Part shown: piece after piece, positions 668 through 22,473 of the stretch | How the letters are laid out: every line of letters begins with the position of its first letter | Position numbering within the stretch: position 1 is the first letter of the stretch | From: a virus | Strand: one strand, 5' to 3' | IMG/VR virus record: IMGVR_UViG_3300030012_000828 | Location: 1-27,285 of that record | Length of the DNA stretch: 27,285 bases | Position numbers and translations under genes: made by a program | The notes under the pieces: generated by a model | Told to the model about the DNA's origin: nothing | What the model saw: the letters and a program-made list of their open reading frames with translations, nothing else | Database searches by the model: none

Positions 668-2953
668 ATGGCTCTCGTAGTTAAAGACAGAGTAAAACAA
701 ACAACTACCACAACTGGTACAGGCAGTATAGTCCTTAATGGTAACATTGATGGGTTTCAAACTTTTGCTGCTGCTTTGACAGACGGTGATACTACTTATT
801 ATGGTATTTTTGTGCCTAGTACAAATGCATTTGAAGTCGGGCTAGGAACGTGGACAGAAGGTAGTGCCACCCTAGCTCGTACTACTATTCTTGAAAGTTC
901 TAACTCAGGAAGTGCCATAAACATTACTGCACAGGCTGAAGTATTTATTACACAACCTGCTGAAAAAGCTGTATTTCAAGATGCTAATGGCGATGTAGAT
1001 TTAGGTGGTAACAAAATACTGTTTGGTAATTTGTACTCTAGTACAGGTGACTTACCTAGTGCATCTACTTATCACGGTATGTTTGCACACGTTCATGGTA
1101 CAGGAAAAGCTTACTATGCACACGGTGGTAATTGGATTGAACTTGTAAATGAAGATACAAGTGGTAATGTCAGTATGGGTGGTAACTTAACTGTTACTGG
1201 TGATCTTACTGTCAACGGAACAACGACTACTGTTAGTACAACTAATACTGTAGTAAAAGATTCATTAATAGAATTAGGAAATGGAACATCTGGTTCTCCA
1301 TCGAATGACGCAGGTATTGTTATTGAACGTGGTTCATCAGACAATGCCTTTATTGGTTATGACGAAAGTGCAGATAAATTTACTGTAGGTACAGGATCGT
1401 TTACAGGTGCAACTACAGGCAATCTTACAATTAGCACAGGTACACTTGTAGCTAACGTAGAGGGTAATGTTACAGGAAACGTAACTGGTAATGCTGATAC
1501 GGCAACAACAGCAGGTACAGTCACAACGGCTGCACAATCTAACATCACATCACTAGGTACACTTACAACACTAACCGTAGATGACATCACAATCAATGGG
1601 TCAACCATAAGTGATGGAGGTGATTTTACTGTAGATGTGGGTGGTGCTATTACTCTTGATGCTGATAGTGGTTATATTGATTTTGCTGACGGTGGAACAA
1701 CTATTGGTCGAATAGAAAATTCTAGCAGTGATTTTAAATTCGAAGCAAGAGTACAAGATAAAGATATACTTTTTGTCGGCAATGACGGTGGCAGTGGTAT
1801 AACTGCTTTACAGCTAGATATGGCAAACGCAGGTGCAGCTACGTTTAATGCAGGTATTACTACTACGGGAATAATTACTGGTGGTTCATATAATGTAGGT
1901 GGCACTGCTGTTATTGATTCAGGCAGAAACCTTGTAAACATGGGTAATGTTAATGGTGCGGCAGGTATCTTTGGTACTGTTACTGTTGATGACATTACAA
2001 TTAATGATTCAACTATATCTGATGCAGGTGACTTGATTGTAGACGTTGGCGGCAATTTACATCTTGATGCTGATGGTGGCAATATAACTTTCAAAGATGC
2101 AGGAACTCAGTTTGGAAAAGTTCGACACGATGGTAGTAACAACGCAGAACTTTACTCAACTGGACAACTTCATTTACGTGCAAATGACGGAACAAACTCC
2201 CAATCACATTATGTTTGGAACCAAGGCAATGTTGCACCTTGGGCAGATAGTTATTTTGATCTTGGCACTACATCATACGGATGGAAAGACGGTTATTTTA
2301 CTGGCAGCATTACTGTTGGAAGCAACATTGTACATGACGGTGATGATGATACTTACCTACAGTTCGATGCTGCTAACAGCTTCCGCATAATCGCAGGAAA
2401 TACACAAACAATTAAAACAACATCTAGTGCAATTACAATGCACTTAGATACGGACATAGACGGCAGTCTAACGGCTGATGATGTTTATGTTGCAGGGTCA
2501 TTAATACATGAAGGTGATACAGATACTAAGATTAGTTTTGGTACTGATTCAGTTCAAACATATGCTGGGAATACTGCTACTTGGAGTGTGTACTCTAGTT
2601 ATGTTGCACTTCAAGCTCCTATATTCAATTACTATACTTACTACGATGAAAGTACACAGTTAACTGGCACAACCCCAACAATTAATGCGGCAAACTCAGG
2701 CAATTTTTACTTAACCATGTCAGGCAATACGACATTTACTTTTAGTGATACTCAGACTGGTGGCTCATGGGCGCATGGTTTTACTTTATATCTTACTGGA
2801 AATGGCTCAACAGTTACATGGCCTAACGATGTTAATTGGGCAGGTGGAACTGCACCAGATGCACCTGCAAATGGAGAAGTAGATGTTTACGTTTTTCATA
2901 CCAGAGATGGTGAAAACTGGTATGGTGTACTTTCGATTGATGCAGCTTCATAA
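668..2953 (+). CDS. Tail fibre-like structural protein, 761 residues
   Basis: The N-terminal region (MALVVKDRVKQTTTTTGTGS and about 100 further residues) looks like the virion-attachment module of marine phage fibres. The middle is low-complexity beta-structure rich in G, T, N and D. It includes two diverged copies of a block beginning TVDDITIN, at residues 303-335 and 439-471, and a NVTGNVTGNADTATTAGTVT stretch typical of trimeric fibre shafts. The last about 85 residues, from around TTFTFSDTQ to NWYGVLS, form a compact end domain that recurs in the 450-residue fibre at 6357-7709. No chaperone peptidase or enzymatic motif is visible. A receptor-binding or adhesive role is inferred from this architecture and from its place among tail genes. 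Confidence 0.75.
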   Translation: MALVVKDRVKQTTTTTGTGSIVLNGNIDGFQTFAAALTDGDTTYYGIFVPSTNAFEVGLGTWTEGSATLARTTILESSNSGSAINITAQAEVFITQPAEKAVFQDANGDVDLGGNKILFGNLYSSTGDLPSASTYHGMFAHVHGTGKAYYAHGGNWIELVNEDTSGNVSMGGNLTVTGDLTVNGTTTTVSTTNTVVKDSLIELGNGTSGSPSNDAGIVIERGSSDNAFIGYDESADKFTVGTGSFTGATTGNLTISTGTLVANVEGNVTGNVTGNADTATTAGTVTTAAQSNITSLGTLTTLTVDDITINGSTISDGGDFTVDVGGAITLDADSGYIDFADGGTTIGRIENSSSDFKFEARVQDKDILFVGNDGGSGITALQLDMANAGAATFNAGITTTGIITGGSYNVGGTAVIDSGRNLVNMGNVNGAAGIFGTVTVDDITINDSTISDAGDLIVDVGGNLHLDADGGNITFKDAGTQFGKVRHDGSNNAELYSTGQLHLRANDGTNSQSHYVWNQGNVAPWADSYFDLGTTSYGWKDGYFTGSITVGSNIVHDGDDDTYLQFDAANSFRIIAGNTQTIKTTSSAITMHLDTDIDGSLTADDVYVAGSLIHEGDTDTKISFGTDSVQTYAGNTATWSVYSSYVALQAPIFNYYTYYDESTQLTGTTPTINAANSGNFYLTMSGNTTFTFSDTQTGGSWAHGFTLYLTGNGSTVTWPNDVNWAGGTAPDAPANGEVDVYVFHTRDGENWYGVLSIDAAS

Positions 2954-6356: not shown

Positions 6357-7709
6357 ATGGGTACAGGTTATGTAAGAATAGACACATCAAACAACATTGC
6401 TAACGGTAATGTTATTGATGCTGATGATCTAGACAATGAGTTTAACGGAGTAGAAGCAGCCTTTAGTTCTAGCTCAGGACATACTCATGATGGTACAGCT
6501 AGTGAAGGTGGCCCCATAACAGTAGTAGGTCCAGCGCAAGATATTGTTGTAACTACATCTTTATTGCGTCCTAAAACAAATAATACTGTAGATCTTGGTA
6601 GTAGTAGTTTAAAGTATAAAGATTTACATATGGCAGGTACTGCAGCTATAGCTACTAATGCTACAGTAGGTGGTACTTTAGGTGTAACAGGTGCAACTGT
6701 TTTATCAAGCACACTTGCTGTTACAGGTAATCAAACTAACACAGGTGATCTTACAGTAAATGGTAATACTACGCTTGGTAATGCAGCATCTGATACGGTC
6801 ACGGTGACTGCTGATGTGGCTTCAAATCTTATTCCTTCTGCTGATAACACTTATGATTTGGGTGCTAGTGGCAGCGAGTGGAAAGATCTCTATATTGATG
6901 GCACTGCTAATATTGATACTGGCTCTATTGATACTGCAAATGTGGGAACTTTAGCCGTATCAGGTAATAGCACATTAGAAGGTGATCTTACAGTAAATGG
7001 TAGTATAAGTGGTTCGGGTTCTATTGTTGCAACTACAGCAAATACACTAACAACTGCACGTACAATTACAATTGCAGGTATAACTGCAGGTGCAGCTAAC
7101 TTTGATGGTTCAGCTAATATAACTATAACAACAAGTGGTCTTACTCTTGGTGGTACAGCAGTTACATCCACAGGTGCAGAGTTAAACATACTAGACGGTG
7201 TTACAGCTTCAACTGCAGAACTTAACACTCTTGATGGTATTACAGCAAGTACTACAGAATTAAATCACGTAGATGGTGTTACATCTGCAATACAAACACA
7301 GCTAGATTCAAAAATAGGTGCAAATTATACAGGTGATATTGACATCACTGGTGAAATTATAGCAGATTCTTACAATGAAACCTTTGCTACTATATCATCC
7401 TCAAGCGGCACAGCAGCAATTAATTGTGAAGCAGGAAATGTATTTTCCTTGACACTGAGTGAAAATATCACTACTTTCAATTGGAATAATCCACCCACAA
7501 GTGGTGTAGCTTATGGATTTTCATTGAAAGTCATACAAGATAGTTCTGCTAGTGGTTATACAATTTCATGGCCTACAACTATTGATTGGCCTAATTCAAC
7601 TGTACCAACACTTACTAGTACTGCTAATGCAATAGATCAGTTTGTATTTTATACACATGATGGTGGAAGTAATTGGTATGGTTTTACAGCAGGACAAAGT
7701 TTAGGATAA
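6357..7709 (+). CDS. Second tail fibre protein, 450 residues
   Basis: The N-terminal 100 residues (YVRIDTSNNIANGNVIDADDLDNEFNGVEAAF in pieces, then SGHTHDG) match the base domain of marine phage fibre proteins that carry a GHTHDG motif. The shaft contains repeats of the type LTVNGNTTLG and NTYDLGASGSEWKDLYIDGTA. It also has a three-fold run, LNILDGVTAST / LNTLDGITAST / LNHVDGVTSA, around residues 276-320, typical of trimeric beta fibres. The last 80 residues (FSLTLSENITTFNW to SNWYGF) correspond to the C-terminal domain of the fibre at 668-2953. Both fibres therefore probably end in related tip or trimerisation modules. A host-recognition role is inferred. Confidence 0.75.
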   Translation: MGTGYVRIDTSNNIANGNVIDADDLDNEFNGVEAAFSSSSGHTHDGTASEGGPITVVGPAQDIVVTTSLLRPKTNNTVDLGSSSLKYKDLHMAGTAAIATNATVGGTLGVTGATVLSSTLAVTGNQTNTGDLTVNGNTTLGNAASDTVTVTADVASNLIPSADNTYDLGASGSEWKDLYIDGTANIDTGSIDTANVGTLAVSGNSTLEGDLTVNGSISGSGSIVATTANTLTTARTITIAGITAGAANFDGSANITITTSGLTLGGTAVTSTGAELNILDGVTASTAELNTLDGITASTTELNHVDGVTSAIQTQLDSKIGANYTGDIDITGEIIADSYNETFATISSSSGTAAINCEAGNVFSLTLSENITTFNWNNPPTSGVAYGFSLKVIQDSSASGYTISWPTTIDWPNSTVPTLTSTANAIDQFVFYTHDGGSNWYGFTAGQSLG

Positions 7710-7715
7710 TATAAG

Positions 7716-9686
7716 ATGACTAATTTTAAAAAGTTAATGATGGCTGCAGCAACAGGTGGTGATCCTGTTAATGTAGAAAATGTGTTTTCCACACATTTGT
7801 ACACTGGCGCAGGTGGAACAACGGCTACAATAAACAACGGAATTGATTTGTTAAATGAGGGTGGTTTAGTTTGGATAAAAGCTCGCAATGCCACAGAAAG
7901 CCATGGTTTATTTGATACTGTAAGGGGTGTTACTAAATACATTAGTTCTAATAATACAAATGCTGAAGCTACAAATTCAGGCACATTAACTAATTTTTAT
8001 GATAACGGATTTAAAGTTGACGGAAATGGAATTGTAGGTAGTTCTTTAGACCCATATGTCTCATGGAGTTTTCGCAAAGCCAAAAAGTTTTTTGATATTG
8101 TTACATATACAGGCTCTGGAGGTGCTAAAACTATTAGCCACAGCCTTGGCTCCACTCCTGGTATGATTTTTGTTAAAAATCTATCTACTGCACAAAGTTG
8201 GTATGTCTTTCATACAAGTGTTGGTGCTACTAAAGGATTGATTTTAGACGGAACTTACGCAGCAGTACTCGGTAGTTCCTATTGGAACGATACTGCACCT
8301 ACGAGCACACAGTTTACTGTAGGCGCAAATGCTAGTGACAATGGCGATTCATATGTAGCCTACCTATTCGCTCACAACAACAGTGACGGTGGGTTCGGCC
8401 CTGACAGTGACCAAGATATTATCAAGTGTGGTAGTTATACTGGTGCAGGTTCAGGTTCTTCTACTACTGTTAATTTAGGGTTTGAACCTCAGTTTGTATT
8501 ATTAAAAAATATTAGTTCTTCTTCTGCTTGGAGCATTGTTGACAGTATGAGAGGTATAGTTACAGGAGGAAATGATCAAACCTTTGAAGGAGATACAACT
8601 GGCGCAGAGTATGCTGCTGATCTAATTGATTTAACATCAACTGGATTTGTAACTAAATCAAATTTTAGTGGCAGTAATACATCTGGACACACATTTGTCT
8701 ACATGGCAATACGCAGAGGCCCAATGGCTGTACCAGAGGATGTGACTAAGGTTTTTCATGTTAATAATTACTCTGGTAATAGTAATAGTAACATTTATAA
8801 TACTGGTTTTGATGTTGATATGAATATTAATACAAAAACAGGTGGTTACGCTAAGCATATAATATCCAGATTAACTGGTAAAAATCTTCTGAAGAGTGAC
8901 TCAACTGATGATGAAGTTAATTATTCTACCGTAAAATGGTTTGATAGTAAAAGTAATCATATTGATTTAAGCACTTCTTGGCTTACAACTCATAATGATG
9001 TAATAAGTTACTCTTGGCGTAGAGCACCTGGTTTTTTTGATGTAGTTTGCTATGACGGAACAGGAAGTGCAAAAACTGTAGCCCATAATCTTGGTGTAGT
9101 GCCAGAAATGATTTGGGTAAAAAATAGAGGATACTCTGGAAATGAAGACTGGTCTGTTTATCACAAAGGCGTAAACGGAGGAACTGACCCAGAAGATTAC
9201 ATTCTTAAGTTAAATTCGGGGTATAAAGAAATAAATTCAGCTAATGATTGGAATGATACTGCACCAACTTCAACGGTGTTTACTGTAGGTAGTGATAGAA
9301 GAACAAATGCTCTTTTGGAGGCTTCTATAGATAATAGATACGTAGCCTACCTTTTTGCTACACTTGCTGGTGTATCCAAGGTGGGTAGTTATACTGGAAA
9401 TGGTTCTTCTAGTGGTCCTACTGTTGATTGTGGTTTTTCAAATGGGCCAAAGCTTGTTATAATTAAAAGAGCAAGTGATGGCAGTAATGATAATTGGATA
9501 GTATTTGATACTGTGCGAGGGTTATCATCTGGTAATGACCACTACATAGCTTTAGATAATACAGATGCTGAGTTTAGTAATGTGGATTGGATTGACCCAA
9601 CTAGTTCAGGTTTTCAAGTAGTGCAAAGCAACTCAGGGGTTAACGCCTCTGGAGACACTTATATCTTTTACGCAGTAGCAGTATAA
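7716..9686 (+). CDS. Large tail-associated protein with two three-domain repeats
   Basis: After a short N-terminus (TNFKKLMMAAATGGDP) this 656-residue protein appears to be six related domains of about 100 residues, arranged as A-B-C then A'-B'-C'. A and A' end in SFRKAKKFFDIVTYTG and SWRRAPGFFDVVCYDG, with the FF pairs at residues 125 and 440. B and B' share WNDTAPTST (from residues 190 and 512) and YVAYLFA. C and C' share GSYTG near the start and SGF then YMAI or YAVA near the end. The individual domain resembles the DUF7483-type repeat I recall from cyanophage and marine phage fibres, an unverified recollection. Binding to host surface glycans or receptors is an inference from tail-gene context. 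Confidence 0.68.
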   Translation: MTNFKKLMMAAATGGDPVNVENVFSTHLYTGAGGTTATINNGIDLLNEGGLVWIKARNATESHGLFDTVRGVTKYISSNNTNAEATNSGTLTNFYDNGFKVDGNGIVGSSLDPYVSWSFRKAKKFFDIVTYTGSGGAKTISHSLGSTPGMIFVKNLSTAQSWYVFHTSVGATKGLILDGTYAAVLGSSYWNDTAPTSTQFTVGANASDNGDSYVAYLFAHNNSDGGFGPDSDQDIIKCGSYTGAGSGSSTTVNLGFEPQFVLLKNISSSSAWSIVDSMRGIVTGGNDQTFEGDTTGAEYAADLIDLTSTGFVTKSNFSGSNTSGHTFVYMAIRRGPMAVPEDVTKVFHVNNYSGNSNSNIYNTGFDVDMNINTKTGGYAKHIISRLTGKNLLKSDSTDDEVNYSTVKWFDSKSNHIDLSTSWLTTHNDVISYSWRRAPGFFDVVCYDGTGSAKTVAHNLGVVPEMIWVKNRGYSGNEDWSVYHKGVNGGTDPEDYILKLNSGYKEINSANDWNDTAPTSTVFTVGSDRRTNALLEASIDNRYVAYLFATLAGVSKVGSYTGNGSSSGPTVDCGFSNGPKLVIIKRASDGSNDNWIVFDTVRGLSSGNDHYIALDNTDAEFSNVDWIDPTSSGFQVVQSNSGVNASGDTYIFYAVAV

Positions 9687-9713: not shown

Positions 9714-10235
9714 ATGGGTGAATTTAGGAATAGAACAACAGGTGAAATAAAATCACAAGGTGAACTTAGGCGTGACAATCCTAATATGTCGATGCCTAGA
9801 GTATGGACTAGTAATGTACACGATGCATTAAATGTTGACCCTGTATTTGAATCAGCTAAACCTAGATCTGGTAAAGATGGGGAGCCTATTGGTCAATACC
9901 AACACGTTGTTCGAGATGGTGTAGAGCAAGATGCAAAAGATAACTGGGTTCAGGCTTGGAAAATAGTAGATATGTTTGCTGATACTACTGATAAAGATGG
10001 CAAGAAAACTACCAAGGCAGAGCATGAAGCTGCGTATCAAATAGGATTAGACAACAATGCAGCAGAACGTAACCGTAGTCAACGTAACAAACTTTTAGCT
10101 GAAACAGATTGGTGGGCTGTATCAGATCGCACTATGTCATCTGAACAAACTGCATATCGTAAAGCACTACGTGATATAACTACACATTCTAATTGGCCTC
10201 ACCTAGAAGAAGGTGATTGGCCTACTAAACCTTAG
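9714..10235 (+). CDS. Tail-fibre assembly / phage tail chaperone-like protein
   Basis: The diagnostic part of this 173-residue protein is at residues 117-173: RNKLLAETDWWAVSDRTM, then EQTAYRKALRDI, a proline-containing turn and a final DWPTKP. This is the signature of the tail assembly chaperone or tail-fibre assembly domain common at the end of phage fibre operons. The N-terminal half (MGEFRNRTTGEIKSQGELRR and onwards) is hydrophilic and probably contacts the fibre. It follows the fibre genes directly, which fits a role in folding or attaching them. AAGGA at 9701-9705 supports the start. The domain call is from motif recognition and the client protein is not known. Confidence 0.7.
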   Translation: MGEFRNRTTGEIKSQGELRRDNPNMSMPRVWTSNVHDALNVDPVFESAKPRSGKDGEPIGQYQHVVRDGVEQDAKDNWVQAWKIVDMFADTTDKDGKKTTKAEHEAAYQIGLDNNAAERNRSQRNKLLAETDWWAVSDRTMSSEQTAYRKALRDITTHSNWPHLEEGDWPTKP

Positions 10236-13787: not shown

Positions 13788-15440
13788 ATGGAATATGACT
13801 TTGCAATGAGTTTCGGTGAGCCAACAAAGCTCGACAGTGATTTTAAACAATCGCAAGGCATAGCTGTTCCACCTAAGAAAGTGGAAGAACCTGAAGATAC
13901 AGGTGTGTATGATTACTTTGGTGATATAATAGTTGGCTACTTTGGTGATGACGAAGAAGAAGGTAAGAGCATACTAACTGAAAGCCCTAGTCTTAGTACA
14001 CCATCTGAGTCTTACTTGGATGACACACTAGAGATGCTTAAGTCTGTAGACATCTCTTCAGATGAACAACTTAAAACAGCATTAGCAGAAGGTGCTACAC
14101 TAGGTGAATCTCCAAATAAACTAGAAGATATATACACTAGTATGGACACAGACTTTGTGACGCTAGAGAATCAGCCCACAGTTGACAGTGAGGGTGAACT
14201 ACTTGAGATAGAACAGACAGAACCATTAGGACTTATGAGTAAACCGTCTGGTGAAACATTAGTAGACAGAACTGAGTCACCCTCAATGCCAGATGAAGCT
14301 GCGCCAACAGAAGAAGTAAGTGTAGATAAAAAAATATTAAGCCCTGCATTTCTTAACGCTATTGGTATTACAGGAAGCTTGACTGAAAAGGGTGTGCAGA
14401 GTGAGGTTAAAAAGATACTAAAAGAACAAGGAATGTCGGATGAAGAGATTGCTAATCTTGTTAATAAGTCTCTTGCTGCTGAGGTGCAGCCTACAGATAT
14501 ACCCGAATTTAGCGAAGAAGAGTTAAGGCTTAGTTTTACTGAATACCCTTCAACTGAAGAGAAAGCAATAGCATACGCTAGTGATATATACCCTAATAAT
14601 AAAGTAGCTGCTGCAGCTTTGGCTGCAACAATTCAATTTGAAGGTATGAAAAATTCTGTTGAGGAAATAGGAGAAAATGAAGATTATAAACTTAAAAAAG
14701 TTTTGTTTTCTAATACAAAAAAACCTCCTTTAAAAAGAAACGATCAGAAAATATATGAGATACTAGGTTTTCCAAAACAGACAGATGATGATGGTAACAT
14801 TGTTTATCTAGAAAGACCAAAAACTATTTTAAATAAAGAAGTTCAAGAAGCCTTAAATAAAAAAGGAATTGATGTAGGTAATGTAGACGGTATAATAGGT
14901 AAAAATACAATTTCTGGGATTAAAAGATTTCAAAAAATAAAAGGCTTAAATGTAACAGGGAAGCTAGACCCTGAAACCTATAAAAAATTAAATATAGAAT
15001 ATAGAGAGTTAGATCATGTAGGACAGCCAATAGCTATGCATGTTGTTAAGAATCCTCCTAAATTTATACCTTCAGATAAAGCAGAAGAAGTATTTAATAT
15101 TAGATATAATGATCATTATAGGAGTGAAGGATATAAACTAGGTAATGTAGGAGATAAAAAGTTTGCAAGGTATAGAGGTAGAGGCCCTATCCAAATTACA
15201 GGAGAAGATACATATAGAAAAGTAGGAGATGCTATAGGTGTTGATCTTATTAAAAATCCTGATCTCTTATCAACAAATGATGCCGTATCAAAAGCCGCAG
15301 TAAAAGCTTACTTAAAAATGAAAGGCTTTTCAAATTACAGTACACCAGAAGAAATGCTAAAAAGTATAAATCCTGGTGAAAAAAATATTGTTAAGAAAAG
15401 ATTTCCAACTTATGAACAATATTTGAAAGAAATAAATTAA
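13788..15440 (+). CDS. Virion-associated lysin: GH19-like domain with inserted peptidoglycan-binding domain
   Basis: This 550-residue protein has three parts. Residues 1-260 are acidic and low in complexity, with no recognised fold. Residues 262-305 (VAAAALAATIQFEGMKN, then GENEDY) resemble the first half of GH19 lysozyme/chitinase domains: E285 sits where HE(S/T)GG normally carries the acid, and E296 or E298 sits at the ENLNY position. Residues 347-402 are a PG_binding_1 domain (GNVDGIIGKNTISGIKRFQ). Residues 430-500 then resume GH19 with FNIRY and RYRGRGPIQITG at 461-472, then VGDAIGVDLIKNPDLL. Expected activity is cleavage of peptidoglycan glycan strands, acting from the virion during DNA entry or at lysis. 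Base composition drops sharply from about 14640. The histidine usual before the catalytic Glu is replaced by Phe. Confidence 0.72.
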   Translation: MEYDFAMSFGEPTKLDSDFKQSQGIAVPPKKVEEPEDTGVYDYFGDIIVGYFGDDEEEGKSILTESPSLSTPSESYLDDTLEMLKSVDISSDEQLKTALAEGATLGESPNKLEDIYTSMDTDFVTLENQPTVDSEGELLEIEQTEPLGLMSKPSGETLVDRTESPSMPDEAAPTEEVSVDKKILSPAFLNAIGITGSLTEKGVQSEVKKILKEQGMSDEEIANLVNKSLAAEVQPTDIPEFSEEELRLSFTEYPSTEEKAIAYASDIYPNNKVAAAALAATIQFEGMKNSVEEIGENEDYKLKKVLFSNTKKPPLKRNDQKIYEILGFPKQTDDDGNIVYLERPKTILNKEVQEALNKKGIDVGNVDGIIGKNTISGIKRFQKIKGLNVTGKLDPETYKKLNIEYRELDHVGQPIAMHVVKNPPKFIPSDKAEEVFNIRYNDHYRSEGYKLGNVGDKKFARYRGRGPIQITGEDTYRKVGDAIGVDLIKNPDLLSTNDAVSKAAVKAYLKMKGFSNYSTPEEMLKSINPGEKNIVKKRFPTYEQYLKEIN

Positions 15441-21830: not shown

Positions 21831-22027
21831 ACACCATTGAGTCTGGAACTACGATTAGCCCACATATGTAATGCTATCAAATGCTTGATTGCTTCTCTTG
21901 TTTCCGAAGTATGATAAAGATTATCAGTCATAAACTTATCTAAAGCTTCTACTTTTTCCTGTAAAGCTCGTTCAAAATAATCGTTCCTCCTAGCTACAAA
22001 GTCTTTCGCTTCTTTTTCTAGGCTCAT
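21821..22027 (-). CDS. Small charged helical protein, function unknown
   Basis: This 68-residue protein is the last gene of the minus-strand operon. It is predicted to be nearly all helix and rich in E, K and R (SLEKEAKDFVARRNDYFERA, then IKHLIALHMWANRSS). There are no cysteines, membrane spans or recognised motif. The start codon overlaps the stop of the endonuclease VII-like gene as ATGA, which supports real translation. The stop codon lies inside the T-tract of the opposing terminator. I do not recognise a family. Confidence 0.6.
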   Translation of the reverse strand: MSLEKEAKDFVARRNDYFERALQEKVEALDKFMTDNLYHTSETREAIKHLIALHMWANRSSRLNGVKK

Positions 22028-22473
22028 TTATCTTCCTTTGTGTAGTGCCTTTTTAAATATGTTAGAGCTTTTTCTACGCCCTCTATATTATCTCCTAGCT
22101 GTCCGATTCCTACATTACAATTACGACATAGCCATCCCCTGAATTGTAAAGTCTTATGATCATGATCTAAATGTAAGTCGTTGGGTTCAAGTGTTTTACT
22201 ACAACAAGCACAAGGTACAGGGTGTAAAGGTCTTTTAGGTGCATTACGATGTGCTTCTCTTAAACCTTTGTTATAGGATTTGAAACATTTTATACACAGT
22301 ACTGCAGTACCTGCACCTTGTCTCTGTCCTACGTCTGGTTTCATGAGAGCTAGAGCAGAAGGATAGAAGTAATGACTTTGTAAATATTCGTCACATCCTT
22401 TACAATGGAATGTCTCTTCACCTTCTTCTAGCTTTTTTGTAATATCTTCTTCATTGAATAGCTCTAGCTGCAT
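22024..22473 (-). CDS. Endonuclease VII-like HNH nuclease
   Basis: The C-terminal half of this 149-residue protein carries the recombination endonuclease VII signature. A zinc site is formed by C88/C91 and C116/C119. HLDHDH at 101-106 gives D103, H104 and H106, and N120 immediately after the last zinc cysteine matches the spacing of the T4 endonuclease VII catalytic set D40-H41-H43-N62. FRGWLCRNCN and GIGQLGDN are typical of the family. An additional CxxC pair (C24/C27 and C60/C63) in the N-terminal half suggests a second zinc ribbon. The expected activity is cleavage of branched DNA or structure-specific nicking. A homing-type HNH is an alternative. It is coupled to both neighbours (TAATG at 22473, ATGA at 22024). 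Confidence 0.85.
   Translation of the reverse strand: MQLELFNEEDITKKLEEGEETFHCKGCDEYLQSHYFYPSALALMKPDVGQRQGAGTAVLCIKCFKSYNKGLREAHRNAPKRPLHPVPCACCSKTLEPNDLHLDHDHKTLQFRGWLCRNCNVGIGQLGDNIEGVEKALTYLKRHYTKEDK

Follow-up and report, generated by a model that had tools for sequence, protein, structure and literature searches.

We found that the 656-residue protein encoded beside a tail fibre gene in a marine virus of bacteria (Table 1; the window is the whole stretch of 27,285 nucleotides that was analysed) consists of six homologous beta domains of ~105 residues in the order A-B-C-A'-B'-C', as the original prediction had proposed. The duplicated three-domain block is real: it equals the Pfam family DUF7483 (PF24299), one A-B-C triad being one DUF7483, and in other viruses it occurs as single genes or with an extra third triad. 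The triad, and not the single unit, is the real evolutionary unit, copied once, twice or thrice per protein. We propose that the 656-residue protein, with its two DUF7483 heads, serves a short-tailed marine phage as a tail adhesin, or receptor-binding protein, a reading that we consider probable.

Two stretches of the protein match DUF7483 (377 bits, where the cut-off is 27, E 8.9e-113). At the DNA level, the first triad is covered by the profile almost from end to end, and the second match starts at profile position 128, so that A' lies outside the reach of the Pfam profile. Pfam treats these 330 amino acids as one domain, whereas we read three homologous units, present twice. DUF7483 was the sole Pfam match at E up to 0.01, with no match to Laminin_G or any lectin family, and a sequence search of solved structures gave no match at E up to 1. 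PHROG matches were to a virion structural protein family and a tail fibre protein family. DUF7483 is a known family, with matches in 62 of 50,697 phage records and DUF7483-type matches in at least 544 stretches of viral contigs, and the double triad is a common architecture; a literature search for DUF7483 did not return the family name, and hence no binding evidence for the family.

Table 1. Positions, within the window, of the DUF7483 protein, its units and the other genes discussed
Feature	Position	Strand	Remarks
Tail fibre gene	668..2953		
Tail fibre gene	6357..7709	+	450 aa; PHROG tail fibre matches; upstream of the DUF7483 gene
ORF with two DUF7483 triads	7716..9686	+	656 aa; leader of ~20 residues of low confidence, pLDDT <50 at 1-15
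Unit A	7782..8093	+	residues 23-126
Unit B	8094..8420	+	residues 127-235; Asp/Gly-rich B-C linker at its end, typical of most first triads
B-C linker	8385..8420		Asp/Gly-rich; letters DGGFGPDSDQDI
Unit C	8421..8738	+	residues 236-341
Unit A'	8739..9038	+	residues 342-441; most divergent; beyond the Pfam profile
Unit B'	9039..9374	+	residues 442-553; short B'-C' junction
Unit C'	9375..9683	+	residues 554-656
DUF7483, first DNA-level match	7782..8717		profile 5-328 of 330; 216.9 bits
DUF7483, second DNA-level match	9036..9680		profile 128-327; 168.4 bits
Tail-fibre-assembly-type (chaperone-like) gene	9714..10235	+	Phage_tail_APC (PF16778) C-terminus; downstream of the DUF7483 gene
Endolysin-like gene	13788..15440		PG_binding_1 and GH19 chitinase domains
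Endonuclease VII-like gene	22024..22473	-	

Two matching triads and their age

Most of the motifs from which the duplication had been read are where they were said to be: the FF pairs lie 315 residues apart (FFDIV at 125, FFDVV at 440), WNDTAPTST recurs in B and B' (residues 190 and 512, 322 apart) and YVAYLFA occurs twice (213 and 542). The FF pair indeed closes A, but FFD(I/V)V as a whole, described as the end of A and A', straddles the unit boundary, strand 1 of B running from residue 126 in the DSSP assignment of the model. Likewise, GSYTG is shared by C and C' (239 and 557), but the SGF ending is exact only once, at 631 in C', where C has TGF. The relatives' consensus keeps the motif in B (NxTxPTSTxFTVG) as well as in B' (WNxTxPTxTxFTVG), so WNDTAPTST is common to the family and no sign of recent copying. 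The B-C junction also distinguishes the two triads: a loose pattern for the Asp/Gly-rich linker, which gave us no more than the impression of a possible calcium-binding loop, fits 105 of 137 B-C junctions versus 5 of 129 B'-C' junctions.

Within the 656-residue protein alone, B and B' share 48 of 93 residues (z 28.8) and C and C' 43 of 95 (z 26.5), values that none of 300 shuffles reached. The A-A' pair is weak in this comparison (z 2.0, reached by 12 of 300 shuffles), and A is nearer to C' (z 7.9), B (5.6) and C (5.3) than to A'. Unit profiles drew on 29 different double-triad proteins, 560-760 amino acids long (28 rows for A), three duplicates having been dropped; one relative with a Laminin-G-like A-B place (L040) was kept in the profile and shuffle comparisons and excluded from the entropy measure. 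While the unit labels of the training rows are circular, the scores between units are free of this circularity. B-B' scored 218.9, C-C' 176.4 and A-A' 66.3, against 29.1-93.5 for the twelve cross pairs. The expectation that each like pair exceeds every cross pair thus holds for B and C, and for A only when seen from A', which ranks A first (66, followed by C 42, C' 40, B 33 and B' 29); from the A side, B' (74) and C' (67) come before A' (66). Evidence for A-A' as good as that for the other pairs was not found, A' being strongly diverged and A not closest to it.

The same picture was obtained protein by protein. Summed within-protein scores reached 318 for the pairing of ABC with A'B'C' versus 137-249 for the five other pairings. 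The best second-triad partner was the like unit for B in 28 of 29 proteins, for C in 29 of 29 and for A in 6 of 28; in the reverse direction it was so for A' (22/28), B' (25/28) and C' (25/28). A' is the fastest-evolving unit, with a mean identity to 28 relatives of 32% versus 45-54% in the other units and an entropy of 2.12 versus 1.40-1.76 (28 rows), and its fast evolution explains the weaker A-A' score.

A different phase, in which the copied block is B-C and an unrelated domain occupies the A' place, could be argued from the Pfam profile missing A', from the weak A-A' signal of the single protein and from A having closer partners than A'. Nevertheless, the A and A' profiles align end to end (columns 1-104 with 5-97, E 2.3e-12), A' against A scores 63.7 where column-shuffled controls reach at most 14.5 (n = 40), A and A' fall on one side of a tree branch (support 92, not starred) and their strand order is alike in the model. 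On profile scores, tree and column-shuffle controls we rejected the B-C-only duplication, which is highly unlikely. Six equivalent domains in plain tandem, not organised in triads, would fit the mutual homology of the units (A-B, A-C, A-C', B-C, B-C', C-B' and B'-C' each exceed shuffles by a wide margin in the 656-residue protein alone), but this arrangement is exceedingly improbable and was rejected because unit similarities are unequal, B-B' and C-C' scoring at least 1.9 times the highest cross pair, tree groups tracking position and one- and three-triad forms retaining the A-B-C phase.

That the duplication is old, as had been supposed, was confirmed in a tree of 105 hand-picked unit rows (one of them, L068, labelled single though cut by its stretch end). 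A single branch sets B and B' off from all other units (SH-aLRT 99), another C and C' (98) and a third A and A' (92, not starred); in addition, the C units cluster as a clade of their own (95) without C'. By the grouping of the C and A units, the triads had split before the sampled contigs diverged; the B units give no clear answer, the free-search tree requiring four label changes for B, three for B' and two for C'. This free search used a quick method on 110 columns with long A' branches, and constraining C' to a single clade improved the log-likelihood by 58 units. Since the search missed this better tree its fine branching was not trusted and, given the few columns and long A' branches, only broad groups were used.

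One, two or three triads in related viruses

Among 130 distinct ORF cores with units, 99 read A-B-C-A'-B'-C', six A-B-C, three A-B'-C, two carry three triads (ABC-ABC-A'B'C', in L037 and L045) and one reads ABC-ABC (L019), the remaining 19 having inserts, extra weak hits or a cut at the stretch end; these counts lean to doubles, the viral-contig loci having been found with double-triad queries. Uncut single triads occur in four loci (L054, L090 with three such genes, L130 and L131), and two others that look single (L046 and L068) are cut by the stretch end. The repeat phase follows from the uncut single forms and the triple forms, all of which begin with A and end with C. Positions 1-5756 of L090 hold three single-triad DUF7483 genes followed by one double-triad gene, and more than one unit-bearing ORF was also observed in L008, L012, L015 (the same contig as L102), L019, L039, L054, L068 and L121. 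For the 40 phage records listed of the 62, the length of the best match is 1.8-2.1 kb in nine and 0.8-1.0 kb in 31.

Among isolated phages, Roseobacter phages CRP-4, CRP-1, CRP-13, CRP-9 and CRP-603 match in one piece over 93-97% of the protein with 37-46% identity, and the double-triad make-up was read for CRP-4 and CRP-603. The CRP-603 protein differs by ~230 extra residues inside unit A, which look Laminin-G-like to the eye. Pelagiphage HTVC031P and cyanophage SS120-1 likewise have homologous units in A-B-C order, but one triad only, in which B scores nearer B' and the B-C junction is short like that of the second triad. Double-triad proteins of 1265 and 1031 amino acids were also observed in two contigs assigned to a Gracilibacteria MAG and to a lake bin (L134, 3066-6860, and L135, 2560-5652). 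Their frames span both triads under translation table 25 and are broken under table 11, so phages that infect code-25 hosts may have the double-triad architecture as well.

Many proteins carry triads without an insert. In others a further domain is inserted into a triad or replaces part of it, and a lectin scan of nine such stretches (leaving out L047, L048, L092 and CRP-603) found Laminin_G_3 (PF13385) in seven. The carriers are L014, L019, L103, L110, L042, L044 and L040; the domain lies inside unit A or between B and C, and takes the A-B place in L040.

Predicted structure of the triad

The model of the 656-residue protein (alignment of 27 rows, the query plus 26) reached a pLDDT of 86.1 and a pTM of 0.88, and DSSP assigned 7-9 strands in like order to each of its six units, A' included. 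The first triad alone reached 93.2 and 0.92, with an alignment of 108 rows (the query plus 107 of 113 listed triads, leaving out L001, a copy of the query, L040, L097 and the phage records L129-L131). This model confidence suggests that the three units may be packed into one rigid block.

Fold comparisons gave weak matches. The best (Z 5.7) aligned 66-70 residues of a single unit with the C-terminal part of a P. aeruginosa neuraminidase/pseudaminidase. Galectins reached Z 4.5 both with the full model (rmsd 4.1 over 87 residues) and with the triad alone (rmsd 3.0 over 73), where antibody-type domains scored nearly as high, and Foldseek TM-scores against the PDB were 0.35 or below among the matches listed. 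As such weak matches include antibody-type domains as well as galectins, they do not establish a glycan-binding fold.

The whole triad was matched by Foldseek to two kinds of three-repeat protein: APC-beta of an apicomplexan perforin-like protein 1 (probability 0.98 for the Plasmodium one, TM 0.27-0.33, rmsd 10-12 Å) and PCSK9 entries (probability 0.35-0.75), TM-scores across both sets being 0.17-0.33 and rmsd 9-12 Å. The available part of PMC6294395 describes Toxoplasma APC-beta and the PCSK9 C-terminal domain as single chains of three beta subdomains that form pseudo-threefold double-layered beta-prisms, with disulphide-linked layers. Neither has a sequence match to the 656-residue protein. 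Three-domain C1q heads also aligned with the first triad of the full model (205-222 residues, Z 3.3-3.4, rmsd 5.4-5.5), but they are absent from the best 50 fold matches of the triad alone, so a pseudo-trimer is not our main claim. We take the three-repeat matches as leads to a pseudo-threefold arrangement, not as proof of one.

The original prediction suggested that one triad might form one face of a fibre trimer or have distinct ligand sites; the block itself could, instead of one face, be a single-chain pseudo-trimer. That DUF7483 stands in, as such a pseudo-trimer, for the homotrimeric knob usual in phage fibres is a tentative idea that we hold at low confidence. If true, positions A, B and C would be free to diversify separately, the 656-residue protein would be two stacked heads, of which the second would bear an A' face that diverges fast, and marine phages would possess a widespread asymmetric receptor-binding head that accepts lectin inserts.

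Tail-module setting and candidate function

The DUF7483 gene lies between a tail fibre gene and a chaperone-like gene, and this order is common in its relatives: of 101 distinct loci with enough downstream sequence, 83 have the start of a chaperone homologue no more than 100 bases away and 18 do not (a count that replaces a looser one of 98/115 loci, within 840 bases and not de-duplicated), and of 90 distinct loci with enough upstream sequence, 71 have the end of a homologue of either tail fibre gene of the window at no more than 100 bases. This is the tail-module setting expected of a receptor-binding tail protein.

Of the first 25 kb, 52% aligns with Roseobacter phage CRP-603 at 78% DNA identity. 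The part of PMC9038755 available lists CRP-603 with HMO-2011-type phages, and that of PMC8528129 describes CRP-9 and CRP-13 as short-tailed, with morphogenesis genes most like the HMO-2011 type; neither part discusses the gene of the 656-residue protein. From these sources and the closeness to CRP-603 we infer that the source phage is an HMO-2011-type podovirus. Compared with CRP-603, the 656-residue protein has 38% identity, whereas 11 of the 15 other plus-strand genes have 57-91% over about their whole length. As for the other four, a 262-residue gene product has 45% and a 616-residue one 72% over half of its length. The best match of the tail fibre at 668-2953 is 79% over the first 112 residues only, typical of a modular swap of the distal part. 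The endolysin-like gene has 35% to the CRP-603 cell wall hydrolase gene, and because this likeness is limited to the first ~153 residues its catalytic part seems swapped. For the endonuclease VII-like gene, comparison with 24 genes of CRP-603 and 16 of CRP-2 gave no match; in CRP-207, an endonuclease VII is annotated within the matching stretch.

In the adhesin that we propose, each triad would be a rigid block of three homologous ~105-residue beta-sandwich units, the C-terminal triad having specialised after the old duplication, with A' changing fastest. The neighbouring chaperone would aid folding or attachment next to the tail fibre at the tail tip. Loops exposed on the units and, in relatives, the grafted Laminin-G domains may bind host surface glycans, and two triads could raise avidity or read two ligands. 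The accessible portion of PMC3909814 reports that genes named tail fibre, lectin-like and C1q-like are among the under-recruiting ones in marine metaviromes and reads these as host-recognition genes.

The protein might alternatively be a structural tail decoration or spacer, its triads serving as ligand-free building blocks in the style of Ig-like repeats that hold another receptor-binding protein. The rigid multi-domain models are compatible with this, as are weak single-unit matches to phage baseplate proteins (9vzk, 9f4b, 4v96 and 9m8o with the full model, 9f4a with the triad alone); the Laminin-G lectin within relatives' triads could then be the true binder, and the modular tail fibre at 668-2953 could be the main receptor-binding protein. 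Against a spacer, only the endolysin-like gene among the 15 other plus-strand genes falls below the identity of the 656-residue protein to CRP-603, A' is variable even in its strands, and many triad proteins have no insert. Low conservation could also be due to relaxed constraint. Weighing these points, we consider a spacer unlikely and favour the adhesin.

The proposed adhesin resembles two described systems. Tandem BACON repeats of crAss-like phages are also tail-associated tandem beta domains thought to bind the host, but the part of PMC6949934 available attributes these arrays to single-domain duplications, or to horizontal transfer and duplication, whereas here a three-domain block was copied. 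Alteromonas phage A5 has a tail fibre with a knob duplication and a paired chaperone gene, according to the available portion of PMC10579305; its chaperone family (DUF4376) and its fibre differ, a distinction drawn from the description only.

What we add is the three-unit reading of DUF7483 together with the one-, two- and three-triad series. The Pfam name carries no function, though the family is common among marine phages; the three-unit reading gives it a usable domain map and places it in the tail/host-recognition gene cluster. A' and the insertion sites are where host-range determinants of Roseobacter and SAR11 phages should be sought.
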